Source: Acidimicrobiaceae bacterium
Lineage (GTDB): Bacteria; Actinomycetota; Acidimicrobiia; Acidimicrobiales; RAAP-2
NCBI GenBank assembly: GCA_003160115.1
Contig: PLQL01000024.1
Coordinates: 1 to 48,265 of the forward strand
Direction of reading: 5' to 3'
DNA length: 48,265 nucleotides
Shown piece by piece: positions 31,681 to 35,989 of this stretch (position 1 is its first letter; each line of letters starts with the position of its first letter). The notes under the pieces were generated by a model. That model worked only from the letters and a program-made list of their open reading frames with translations. It made no database searches and was not told the DNA's origin. Position numbers and translations under genes: made by a program.

Positions 31681-32988
31681 GCAACCGTTGCGTGCGTGAT
31701 CGACGATGGCATCTACTTAGGTCAAACACGACACGGTGACGCGACGAGTGGATCGCAGCGCTCCACGTTGGTGCTCGGACCAAGTCGAAGTGGAAAGACG
31801 ACATCACTCATCATTCCAAATCTCCTGATCACAAAGCGATCTTGCGTCATCACGTCAACGAAGAACGACGTCGTGAATGCAATGGCAAACGCACGACGCG
31901 ACGCAGCGATCCTTCTGTTCGATCCGTCGGGAACGGTCTATACACCAAATGGAGTGCAACGTGTTGGATACTCACCAATTCGTCAATCAAAAAGTTGGGA
32001 CGGAGCAGTTTTGGCGTCGCGCACGCTCATCGACGTCTCACGACGAGGTCGCGGCGATCGCAGCGACGACCACTGGACCGAGCGCGCTGGTGCACTCGTG
32101 GCACCGTTGCTGCACGCCGCGGCACTCGGCGACGAGTCGCTCGGTACTCTCGCGTCACGCGTCGACCACCGACACGCCGACGACGCACTTCACGCGTTGC
32201 ACGAACGCTACGGCGATCATCACCCTTCGGTCTCGCTGCTGAGCGGCGTTCTCGCCACCGAAGAACGCGAACGATCGGGCATCTGGTCCACGACCTCGGG
32301 GTTATTCGCCGGCGTGCGCACCGAGGCGGCACGCGCGTCTGCGCGCGAGGCACCCCTCGACGTCGACGAGTTCCTCGCCGGACCCCATCAACTGCACATC
32401 GTGGCGCCCAGTCGATACCAGGCGGTGACGACCCCGCTCGTGGTGGGCCTGATTGACGAGTTGGTGCACGCCACGTACGACCGCCACGAAAAGGGTGCCC
32501 GGCTCCTACTCGCCCTGGACGAACTCGCCAACGTGGCGCCGCTACCGCGACTCGCGAGCATCGTCTCTGAAGGCGGGGGTCAGGGCGTACTCACCCTCGC
32601 CTGTCTCCAAGATCTCAGTCAGGCGCGCAGCCGTTGGGGAGCATCGGGCGAGGGCTTTCTCTCGCTCTTTCCCACGACCGTCGTCCTACCGGGTATCGGG
32701 GACCGGCCCACGCTGGAACTACTTCAGCATCTAGCGGGCCGCTCGCTCGTGGCGAGCCCGAGCGTCCAGCTGAGTGCCCGGGGAAGGCGAACGGGCCAGA
32801 GTACGGCCTGGGTCGAACGCGACCGCGCGACCCTCGCGAGCATCGCCCAGGGACGCCCCGGCTACGCCCTCGGCCTCGACGCCACCAAACGAATGAGCTG
32901 GATCGGCCTCACCCCGTCCTACCTCGACGAGCGATTCACTCGCTACCTCGAGCGCTCGTACCCGACCGATCGCTCCCTCGAACGCTGA
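31669..32988 (+). CDS. VirD4/TraD-type coupling ATPase (TraM-recognition/type IV secretion coupling family), no evident N-terminal TM domain
   Basis: Walker A LVLGPSRSGKTTSLIIPNLL, ILLFDPSG, Walker B LLLALDELANVAPLPRLASIVSEGGGQGVLTLACLQDLSQARSRWG, FPTTVVLPGIGDRPTLELLQHLAGRS. Start uncertain (TTG 31669 or GTG 31696). Confidence 0.85.
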   Translation: MKKFATVACVIDDGIYLGQTRHGDATSGSQRSTLVLGPSRSGKTTSLIIPNLLITKRSCVITSTKNDVVNAMANARRDAAILLFDPSGTVYTPNGVQRVGYSPIRQSKSWDGAVLASRTLIDVSRRGRGDRSDDHWTERAGALVAPLLHAAALGDESLGTLASRVDHRHADDALHALHERYGDHHPSVSLLSGVLATEERERSGIWSTTSGLFAGVRTEAARASAREAPLDVDEFLAGPHQLHIVAPSRYQAVTTPLVVGLIDELVHATYDRHEKGARLLLALDELANVAPLPRLASIVSEGGGQGVLTLACLQDLSQARSRWGASGEGFLSLFPTTVVLPGIGDRPTLELLQHLAGRSLVASPSVQLSARGRRTGQSTAWVERDRATLASIAQGRPGYALGLDATKRMSWIGLTPSYLDERFTRYLERSYPTDRSLER

Positions 32989-34020
32989 GCCCACCGCTCG
33001 AGATCCTCGCTCGCGAGGGGCCGCGGACCGCGTTCACGCACGAGCCGGATCATCCGGGCCTCGCTGAGCCCGATCGAAGCCTCGCGAACGCCCCGCGAGT
33101 CGCGAAGCGCCGGGTACAACGTGTCGATCGAACGAGTGATCTCCTGGGCCCCCTCGCCATAGGTCGCCGCTTCGGCCCAGGCGCCCACCAGTTGGCGTCG
33201 GGTGATCTCGCGCGAACCCTCGAGAGCCGACCCGAAGACGTGTTCGTCAACACTCGCCCTATCCCTCGTCGGGGGTGGCACCTCGCCGGTGACCTCGAAG
33301 CGGTCCACGTCGTCACGCCAGCGCGCGACGATCTCCTCGCGTCGCCAATGCCGCTTTTCGCCTCGATCGTCGAAGTGACCTCCCCACAGGGCTCGATAGC
33401 CCTCATCCACACCAATGACGTGTTCGACGCCGTGAAACGAACGCCAGGTCACCCAGGGTGTCTCCTGCGCGACGAGCTGGCGCAGGGATGACCGATAGAG
33501 GGCGTCCGCGGCGCGCGCGTGGACGTAGAGCGATCGCGCGTCGAGCACGGTGGTCGCGTGTTCCGGGCGAGCTCCTACGAGCACGTGATCGTGCACGTGG
33601 GGCTCACCGTGTCGATTGACTCCGTGGGTGAAACTCACCACGCTCTCCCAACGACCTGGTTCGTCGCGGTCCGCCCCCGCCCTTCGGTCGCGCACCACCA
33701 GGGCTCGTTGTTCGAGGTAGTCCATCGAAGAGGCGACCGAGGAGCGATGCGCCTCCAAGAGCGCGCCCGCACTCGGTGGATCGAGCGCGACCAGGATCGA
33801 GACGGCGCGCGGCGCCGCAAAGATGAGGTCATAACCAAGTACGGAAGCGCGGTTGGTGTGTACCAGTACTTCGGCCACGTCACGCTCACGACGGGTGTCA
33901 CCGTCACCGCGTAACCACCAACCGGGACCGTCGACCATGCCTTCGAGTTCAAGGGCGTGATCGTCGGTGAAGTAGCTCACGTCACTGGACCGTCGAGAGA
34001 ATATTCGCAGCACGCCCACC
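32943..34020 (-). CDS. MobF/TrwC-like relaxase (HUH endonuclease), no helicase domain
   Basis: Reading from GTG 34020: VGVLRIFSRRSSDVSYFTDDHALELEGMVDGPGWWLRGDGD...GYDLIFAAPRAVSILVAL...SFTHGVNRHGEPHVHDHVLVGARP (HxHxH metal triad). Only about 359 aa, ending without helicase motifs. Confidence 0.85.
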
Positions 34021-34042
34021 CCTTTGGGGGGCCCAACGGTCG

Positions 34043-35989
34043 CTACAGTGTCGCGGCGATGTGACGGGCGAGCTCGTGGCCAGCCGTAGCGAACTTCTCG
34101 GTCGCCACGACCGCCCCCGGTCCCGCGAGGACCATGAGGTGGTCGAGGAACGATTCGTCGCTCACCCGGAATTTCACGGCGTGACGACCATCGGCGAGCG
34201 CCAGCCACTGCGAACTGGGCAGGGGCTCAAAGAGGTAGCGCGCGTAGGGTTCGACGATGACCACCACCTCTTCACCCTCGTCGCCGACCTGCGTGAGCCA
34301 ATTGACGACGTCGTCGCCAGGTCGCTCCTCGCTGGCGGGCGACCTGGCGACGATGTCGGTGATGCGGTCGATTCGAAACGTGCGCCAGGAGCCGCGGTTG
34401 GTGGAGAACGCCCGCATATAAGTATGGCCATTCAAGACCTTGATCTCGCGGGGTTCGACCGTGCGCTCGCTGGCACCTTCGGCCGAAGCCGGTGCGTAAA
34501 GGATCTTTAACTGCTCGTGCTGGTCAATGGCCTGCTGGACCAGGCTCAGCATCGCCTCGTTGGCGAGTTCGACTTGCACGAAGTCCCGGGCGACGTCCTC
34601 GATCTTGTCGATCGCCGAGTAAATGGCCGGGTCGGTGTAAACGCGCGACGCCTCACGCAGCGCGATATTGAGTTCGAAAAGGTCACGCCACATCAGAGCC
34701 GACGGTTCGTCATACTCGTCAATGAAATCCGCACGGTAGGTCGAATCGTCAGTCTCCTCGTGATCCCAGTCGTCGCAGTCCTTGATGACGTGGGCGGGAA
34801 AGAGCCCGGAACCGTCGTTGGACTCGGCCATGGGCTCGAGGGAGGAGAGCCGGTCCATTATGAGTCGCACGTGCTCGCGGCTCAGGTTGAACCGGGTTGC
34901 GAGTTCACTGATGCGAAGACCATCCTCGGAAAGGTAGACCGCGTGCAACAGCTGCAGGGTCTCGCCCAGCACGTCACTCGAGGTGGGCGTGGAGAACTTG
35001 AGCGAACCCAGTGACGGTACTTCGCCCCGATTCACCCGCTTCAGCCACTGCGCAAGTTCGAGGCGCAGTGACTTGGGACTCAGGAGCCTCACTCGTTCGG
35101 CCGCCTCGAGCACGAAACGAAGGGCTGCCCGAGGACTCTGGAACGAGACCCCGACTTCGACCCTGCCCTCCTTCTTGGTCGCGGCGAGCGCGCCCGGAAA
35201 CTGGCGCACCAGGAGATCGGCGTAGTTGGCGTTCGTGGTCACGACCACGTCGATGGGCGTGGGTTCCTTCTGGAATTCGGCCCGCCAGGCCCGCGCGACC
35301 TCGAGCACCACGTCGTCGACCTCAAAGGAATCACCCAGCACCTCGGGCATCGACGTCATGCGCGAGAACCGATACCCCTTGATCTCGCCCGTGCCCCTCA
35401 CCCTTGCCACCAGATACGAAATCCCGTTCAGGACGTCGATTACTAGTGGCTCGACCTCGCGTTCCTTGTTGGTCGAGGACTGGTAGTAAAAACGCAACAC
35501 GCGACGCGTTTTAAGGGCACGCACTACGGGCGTATAGTACGCGGAGAACTCGAGGCCGCCTTCGCTCGCCGGTGTCTCGTTGAACACGCTAAAAGCGCCC
35601 GAAGACCCGAAGCCGCAAAACCGCAGACTCAATTGCACCACCCGCTGCTCGTCTTCGTCGAAGTGGATCACTGGCGCGTAACCGCTCGCCGGGTCTATCC
35701 GGTAGCCAATGCTGTCATCGGGCAAGGTGACAGTCTCGATGTCAAAGCCGAGGTCGCGGATACGCGCTTTGTCGCGCTCGAACTTCTGTCGAACCGCACC
35801 CTCGTTGCCCTCGTAGGCCCGGACCTTCTTGGGACCCTTGGACGACGCCGGGTACTCGTCTACTTTCAGCTCGCGGATGATCTCTTCTTGCGTAAGGGGC
35901 CGTCCGTCGCTCCAGGCTCGTTGCAACAGCAGTATCAGGGCCACCAGGCGTTCTCGACTCTGCTCGATTCCCCCGCGGATGGTGCTCAT
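34043..35989 (-). CDS. Fused double WYL-domain transcriptional regulator, PafB-PafC-like
   Basis: Two repeats of HTH + WYL-like regions: ERLVALILLLQRAWSDGRPLTQEEIIREL...LRFYYQSSTNKEREVEPLVIDVLNGISYLVARVRGTGEIKGYRFSRM and LLHAVYLSEDGLRISELATRFNLSREHVRLIMDRLSSL...LKILYAPASAEGASERTVEPREIKVLNGHTYMRAFSTNRGSWRTFRIDRI. Confidence 0.88.
   Translation of the reverse strand: MSTIRGGIEQSRERLVALILLLQRAWSDGRPLTQEEIIRELKVDEYPASSKGPKKVRAYEGNEGAVRQKFERDKARIRDLGFDIETVTLPDDSIGYRIDPASGYAPVIHFDEDEQRVVQLSLRFCGFGSSGAFSVFNETPASEGGLEFSAYYTPVVRALKTRRVLRFYYQSSTNKEREVEPLVIDVLNGISYLVARVRGTGEIKGYRFSRMTSMPEVLGDSFEVDDVVLEVARAWRAEFQKEPTPIDVVVTTNANYADLLVRQFPGALAATKKEGRVEVGVSFQSPRAALRFVLEAAERVRLLSPKSLRLELAQWLKRVNRGEVPSLGSLKFSTPTSSDVLGETLQLLHAVYLSEDGLRISELATRFNLSREHVRLIMDRLSSLEPMAESNDGSGLFPAHVIKDCDDWDHEETDDSTYRADFIDEYDEPSALMWRDLFELNIALREASRVYTDPAIYSAIDKIEDVARDFVQVELANEAMLSLVQQAIDQHEQLKILYAPASAEGASERTVEPREIKVLNGHTYMRAFSTNRGSWRTFRIDRITDIVARSPASEERPGDDVVNWLTQVGDEGEEVVVIVEPYARYLFEPLPSSQWLALADGRHAVKFRVSDESFLDHLMVLAGPGAVVATEKFATAGHELARHIAATL

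Follow-up and report, generated by a model that had tools for sequence, protein, structure and literature searches.

A relaxase gene beside pafBC as part of a candidate chromosomal DNA-transfer system in the Acidimicrobiales

RESULTS

The analysed window, 48,265 nt of contig PLQL01000024.1 from an Acidimicrobiaceae genome (GenBank assembly GCA_003160115.1), contains a gene for a MobF-type relaxase directly downstream of a gene for a fused PafBC, the homologue of an activator of the DNA-damage response. On balance, the sequence comparisons favor the reading that this locus (locus A) forms one half, relaxase and regulator, of a conjugation-type DNA-transfer system that is chromosomal and vertically inherited in a clade of the Acidimicrobiales, and that PafBC coordinates this system with the DNA-damage response. 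It is supported by family-wide synteny that extends to further families, intact catalytic residues, purifying selection, the gene content of a second locus (locus B) encoding a type IV secretion system (T4SS) and its co-occurrence with locus A, the adjacency of relaxase and pilin genes in another family, housekeeping flanks, and the conserved arginines through which ssDNA activates PafBC. The comparisons cover 61 genomes of the window's Acidimicrobiia family (f1), 40 fetched loci, the 80 best GTDB hits and 296 genomes drawn from across the class. The features of locus A are:

34043–35989, minus strand: fused PafBC (helix-turn-helix, WYL and WCX domains, twice), homologue of a DNA-damage activator that senses single-stranded DNA (ssDNA), 648 aa (Pfam WYL/WCX; PDB 6sj9)
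32943–34013, minus strand: MobF/TrwC-type HUH relaxase, 356 aa, without a helicase domain (Pfam TrwC; invariant catalytic residues; AlphaFold fold)
34014–34042, minus strand: intergenic spacer, 29 nt, with an AAAGGGG ribosome-binding site and free of terminators (sequence and scan)
31669–32988, plus strand: VirD4/TraG-like coupling ATPase without transmembrane (TM) segments, convergent with and overlapping the 3′ end of the relaxase gene (Pfam T4SS-DNA_transf, 4e-23)
36044–36556, minus strand: moaC, 54 nt upstream of pafBC (Pfam MoaC, 2.4e-45)

The pafBC-relaxase gene pair

The relaxase open frame extends from 32943 to 34208 on the minus strand and offers two candidate start codons, GTG at 34013 (29-nt gap to the pafBC stop) and GTG at 34019 (23-nt gap); the former is matched by the ATG start of the nearest ortholog and has AAAGGGG located 5 nt upstream. 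With either start, the close same-strand spacing described in the original prediction is confirmed. Further, a consensus scan of the spacer found neither terminator-like nor sigma70-like sites, which had been named as evidence that would speak against a shared transcript. Because of the gap, the common strand, and the persistence of the pair in 21 genera and in other families, pafBC and the relaxase gene are very likely co-transcribed, as had been proposed from the window's letters alone. In this genus, the transcript may begin with moaC, which is not a fixed member of the locus and, in many genera, is missing from the spot upstream of pafBC.

The identification of the WYL protein as a fused PafBC also stands. 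Pfam detects two WYL domains (1.1e-27) together with WCX, the family profile matches the solved PafBC structure 6sj9 nearly end to end (E = 3.4e-87, positions 8–641 of 651), and in profile searches the PafB and PafC halves separately match the mycobacterial entries 7p5x and 9fnd. In particular, R207/R210 and R539/R542 align with R211/R214 of PafB and R201/R204 of PafC from Mycobacterium smegmatis, the residues that bind the activating ssDNA (PMC11804915). PafBC is near-universal in the class, with matches in 282 of 296 genomes and in all 148 genera of the class-wide draw. In the window's genome (86% complete), no WYL gene other than the fused pafBC was found, so that the second copy suggested earlier as a possibility near the Pup-proteasome genes is not seen there, and in relatives the Pup ligases PafA and Dop are located on contigs other than the one carrying pafBC. 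The Pup-proteasome neighborhood, which is the typical context of PafBC and not a criterion of its sequence, is therefore absent, and the window protein is, as judged by these comparisons, the lineage's ordinary PafBC relocated from the proteasome locus. No Pup ligase was found in the window's own genome (G000), whereas the five other members of its genus in the family draw each have two matches; this gap probably reflects missing sequence. In addition, PafBC is apparently split into pafB and pafC at loci L083, L089, L091–L093, L095, L096, L101 and L102, and is fused in most other family genera; both forms share an identical relaxase neighborhood.

The relaxase matches Pfam TrwC above its cut-off (2.9e-23), and its NCBIfam MobF equivalog score of 77.8 bits lies below the cut-off of 100. 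Across 38 orthologs, Tyr14 and His130/141/143 are invariant and position 62 is either Asp, as in the window, or Glu. A fold search of the PDB with the AlphaFold (AF2) model (predicted local distance difference test, pLDDT, 92.7) returned 27 matches at E < 1e-3, all of them TraI/TrwC-type MobF relaxases, with TraI and TrwC on top (E about 1e-10). The C-terminal helicase part is absent, both from the 356-aa window protein and from its family orthologs of 330–509 aa.

Conservation and inheritance of the locus

All 21 genera of the family are covered by the comparison, where the relaxase is present in 58 of 61 genomes and PafBC in 59 of 61. The order and strand of PafBC followed by relaxase are retained in the window and in all 39 assessable fetched family loci, the 40th being cut by a contig end, which bears out the conserved adjacency on which the original prediction depended. 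The coupling ATPase is convergent with the relaxase in 40 of 40 fetched loci, and its Walker A and B motifs are invariant (41 loci); in most fetched loci, a lysine-rich histone-H1-like gene lies beside the ATPase, followed by cofC on contigs that extend far enough. The gap between the PafBC stop and the relaxase start is 6 to 109 nt in 32 of 38 f1 orthologs. Three gaps are near 1 kb. In two of them (L101 and L102), the pafC of a split pafB-pafC pair lies in between and pafB alone was scored; the third, in L095, is 801 nt. The gap is about 0.9 kb in L077, a further fetched locus.

Moreover, the pair is present in 75 of the best 80 GTDB hits; of the other five, one is a contig end and four are contigs of Mycobacterium/Mycolicibacterium. 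Beyond f1, the relaxase gene directly follows pafBC in at least five families of the order, namely f3 (genome G186), f5, f13, f23 and f25, and lies within about 1.7–4 kb of it in f3 (genome G266), f22 and f24. Genome G074, taken as Acidimicrobium ferrooxidans DSM 10331, carries the genes for the relaxase and the coupling ATPase as well as the VirB4 locus described below, with pafBC about 7 kb from the relaxase gene.

The window locus is flanked mostly by housekeeping genes (SecA, FtsEX, Dxs, TldD/PmbA, MoaC, CofC and RNase HII). No integrase was found among the window proteins scanned, and in place of the variable insertion site of an integrative element, the flanks are constant over 21 genera. 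Relaxase identity among genera falls to about 26–30%. The ratio of nonsynonymous to synonymous substitution rates (dN/dS) is 0.10–0.16 in the closest pairs, and relaxase distances parallel those of the coupling ATPase (r = 0.91), PafBC (0.87) and moaC (0.73). Together, the synteny, housekeeping flanks, lack of an integrase among the scanned proteins, low dN/dS and parallel distances indicate that the locus is vertically inherited under purifying selection. Many contigs of metagenome-assembled genomes (MAGs) end about 2 kb past the relaxase gene. An element boundary was considered as their cause and rejected: the ends fall at the lysine-rich repeat gene, and assembly breaks explain them best.

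A second, unlinked locus encodes a minimal T4SS

The original prediction of a nicking enzyme near a damage sensor was correct in that both genes are real, but it was incomplete, having overlooked the coupling ATPase and a separate T4SS locus. With these two added, an enzyme near a sensor becomes a candidate DNA-transfer system. The second locus is:

G000:C24:62001–82000 (L187, the window's own genome), positions 7147–12814, minus strand: chromosomal minimal T4SS operon, locus B (profile matches), best seen in L188

Locus B is unlinked to locus A and encodes a small two-TM pilin-like protein (DUF6112, 2.5e-9; T4SS_pilin, 5e-4, below cut-off), a polytopic SCO6881/VirB6-like protein (SCO6881_fam, 1.7e-13), an SCO6880-like protein (SCO6880_fam, 4.5e-8, below cut-off), a VirB4/TraC-like ATPase (TraC/VirB4, 2.5e-16, below the equivalog cut-off), a second VirD4-like protein (VirD4, 5e-26, also below its equivalog cut-off; T4SS-DNA_transf, 1.7e-27) and a ROK-family protein. 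Four components by which a T4SS is recognized, namely a VirB4 ATPase, a VirB6-like channel, a VirD4 coupling protein and a pilin, thus have counterparts at locus B. In the window's own genome, the VirB6-like frame is interrupted; a true break was rejected as the explanation, the cause being a run of N in the assembly. Locus B adjoins a divergent two-component system, composed of a histidine kinase and a response regulator, which is likewise conserved.

The locus B VirB4 is present in 57 of 61 family genomes. In the class-wide draw, where the short locus A ATPase was scored at E ≤ 1e-99, all 34 genomes with this ATPase (19 from the family and 15 from eight other families) also have the locus B VirB4; a strong VirB4 match occurs in about 18 of the remaining 262 genomes, and we read these as candidate conjugative elements. 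The possibility that AAA_10 matches are noise from the Walker A motifs of FtsK or CpaF was rejected, as they mark the real VirB4 locus. Further, in family f16 (L216, L217 and L218), the relaxase gene is not beside pafBC and instead adjoins a T4SS pilin gene, from which it is divergently transcribed. This adjacency and the co-occurrence of the two loci indicate that the relaxase and the T4SS belong together.

A candidate structured leader RNA next to the locus

Two further features lie beyond the coupling ATPase:

31110–31391, minus strand: small histone-H1-like protein rich in lysine, its gene divergent from that of the coupling ATPase (K-rich frame at this place in most f1 loci)
31392–31660, minus strand: conserved, structured noncoding leader before the H1-like gene (consensus fold, covariation, model R1)

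The H1-like protein carries AKKAPAKK repeats, and this repeat gene is probably the cause of the many MAG contig ends at this spot. The leader has a sigma70-like promoter (−35 TTGACA at 31653–31648, 17-nt spacer, −10 TGGACT at 31630–31625) followed by a structured RNA of about 230 nt; within the genus, the distance from the promoter to the H1-like gene is nearly constant at about 230–275 nt. In its consensus fold, 25 of 45 pairs show compensatory changes, and one hairpin has loops mostly of the GNRA type. Model R1 has exactly one match in each of 14 genus genomes, and all its matches fall within the genus. No match to Rfam rose above chance and no conserved small open reading frame was found in the leader, which we consider a candidate new structured RNA. 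The sequence GTCAAGCAT, located upstream of the coupling ATPase, is conserved and single-copy and was considered as a nic site or origin of transfer (oriT). It was rejected: its reverse strand is the −35 element (TTGAC) of a promoter that has an exact 17-nt spacer and reads toward the H1-like gene, and its copies near relaxases of other families occur at chance level.

DISCUSSION

In the proposed mechanism, the relaxase would nick chromosomal DNA close to the locus; the resulting single strand would then be fed by the coupling ATPases into the pilin/VirB6/VirB4 channel of locus B. Activated by ssDNA (PMC11804915), PafBC would tie the machine to DNA damage or to the ssDNA made by the relaxase itself. 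Exchange of DNA could then serve diversification or repair by recombination, in the manner of the Sulfolobales Ced system. A more specific proposal, which we put forward tentatively, is that the two loci are a bacterial counterpart of Ced: a conjugation machine captured by an ancestral Acidimicrobiales chromosome, selectively kept, and coupled to damage through ssDNA sensing by PafBC, so that a dedicated relaxase may allow damaged cells to export single strands of their chromosome or to exchange them.

Several observations weigh against a damage-controlled transfer system. No oriT or nic site was identified, and in the representative of the window's genus (g1), neither VirD4-like protein has a predicted TM segment or membrane anchor. 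Sequences resembling RecA-NDp, the promoter type through which PafBC acts, occur ahead of pafBC, the coupling ATPase gene and the pilin gene no more often than in shuffled sequences. In mycobacteria, the level of PafBC is unchanged on damage (PMC6789036), so that sharing an operon could equally mean constant expression of the relaxase; operon membership with the sensor does not by itself establish that damage induces the relaxase. The neighborhood is also broken in the f16 genomes and in the presumed A. ferrooxidans genome G074, and the link between pafBC and the relaxase is therefore not obligatory. The same constant PafBC level, missing promoter motif and relocated relaxases would also fit the view that PafBC and the relaxase share only an old, selectively neutral neighborhood, in which a real, conserved T4SS relaxase has no regulatory tie to DNA damage; PafBC is, moreover, found throughout the class with or without a relaxase neighbor. 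We consider this rather unlikely, since short same-strand gaps are kept across strongly diverged genera and further families, and the pair stays together while moaC and other neighbors change.

Alternatively, the relaxase and a soluble VirD4-like ATPase could have been repurposed under PafBC for repair or recombination inside the cell, as an HUH nuclease with a HerA-like motor and without DNA export. The PafBC linkage, the TM-less locus A ATPase, the lost helicase domain and the retention of the system in streamlined genomes of 1.4–2.3 Mb are consistent with such a role; the strict co-occurrence with a pilin/VirB6/VirB4 locus and the position of the f16 relaxase directly beside a pilin instead point to a membrane machine, and make a purely intracellular role unlikely. 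It is very unlikely that locus A derives from an integrated conjugative element (ICE), as its remnant or as a segment that can be mobilized, with a plasmid-type or ICE relaxase and coupling protein inserted beside PafBC by chance. Mobile elements typically encode MobF relaxases and VirD4 proteins, and such elements do occur in the class, as seen from long MobF proteins on other contigs, but the relaxase conserved here is short and lacks the helicase part, keeps its catalytic residues under purifying selection, diverges in parallel with the host gene moaC, and occupies a constant place among housekeeping genes, with no integrase among the scanned window proteins.

Overall, the chromosomal transfer system remains the reading that we prefer, and under it conjugation machinery appears to have become a lasting component of these cells, with a possible link to damage. 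Bacterial conjugation systems are regarded as a property of mobile elements (PMC9905601); if the reading is true, a bacterial clade that holds a relaxase and T4SS permanently in its core genome, wired to a damage sensor, would be an exception, and the set would provide a route for chromosomal gene exchange in the abundant, mostly uncultured Acidimicrobiia of soil and freshwater. The presence of the relaxase, coupling ATPase, VirB4 and PafBC in G074 makes the proposal testable in a cultured type strain. No paper joining PafBC with a relaxase was found in a search that covered little of the subscription journals, and a prior description is possible; among papers combining Acidimicrobi- with relaxase or T4SS terms, none describes the locus in its title or abstract. 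One such paper (PMC3218068) reports no actinomycete integrative and conjugative elements (AICEs) in this subclass. The memberships in PafBC, MobF and T4SS families are ordinary; their fixed combination is what is new.

Comparison with known systems

The window protein shares its domain order, full-length alignment and ssDNA-binding arginine pairs with mycobacterial and Arthrobacter PafBC, for which a natural fusion is known (PDB 6sj9; PMC6789036, PMC11804915). Its gene differs in adjoining a relaxase gene in place of the Pup-proteasome locus, and the promoter motif of the mycobacterial PafBC regulon was not enriched upstream of the genes scanned. Similarly, the relaxase has the HUH fold, catalytic Tyr, Asp/His motif and three-His metal site of TrwC (R388) and TraI (F); in contrast to them, it is a stand-alone protein (330–509 aa across the family) without the C-terminal helicase and is fixed in the chromosome.

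As a whole, the system resembles the T4SS of the gonococcal genetic island (PMC12857230), a chromosomal T4SS with a relaxase that could export chromosomal ssDNA; that island is, however, a horizontally acquired F-like element, whereas the window's family keeps two separate loci across its genera. The chromosomal T4SS of Patescibacteria (PMC12102498) is likewise clade-wide and of the monoderm type, often with virD4 away from virB4, but mostly lacks a relaxase, which is near-universal and PafBC-linked in the window's family. The Ced and Ted systems of hyperthermophilic archaea (PMC9905601, PMC11868833) are also chromosomal, clade-conserved conjugation-type machines with VirB4-, VirB6- and pilin-like parts, and Ced is linked to the DNA-damage response. 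The Acidimicrobiia set differs in being bacterial, and in having a MobF relaxase, VirD4-like ATPases and a PafBC regulator; it has the relaxase that Ced and Ted lack and does not show family-level homology to CedA and CedB, the VirB4 of L209 giving a weak NCBIfam match to CedB (1.4e-6, far below cut-off). Captured by the chromosome, Ced exchanges cellular DNA after damage and does so without a relaxase (PMC9905601); this conjugation machine is the nearest working analogue of the Acidimicrobiia system.

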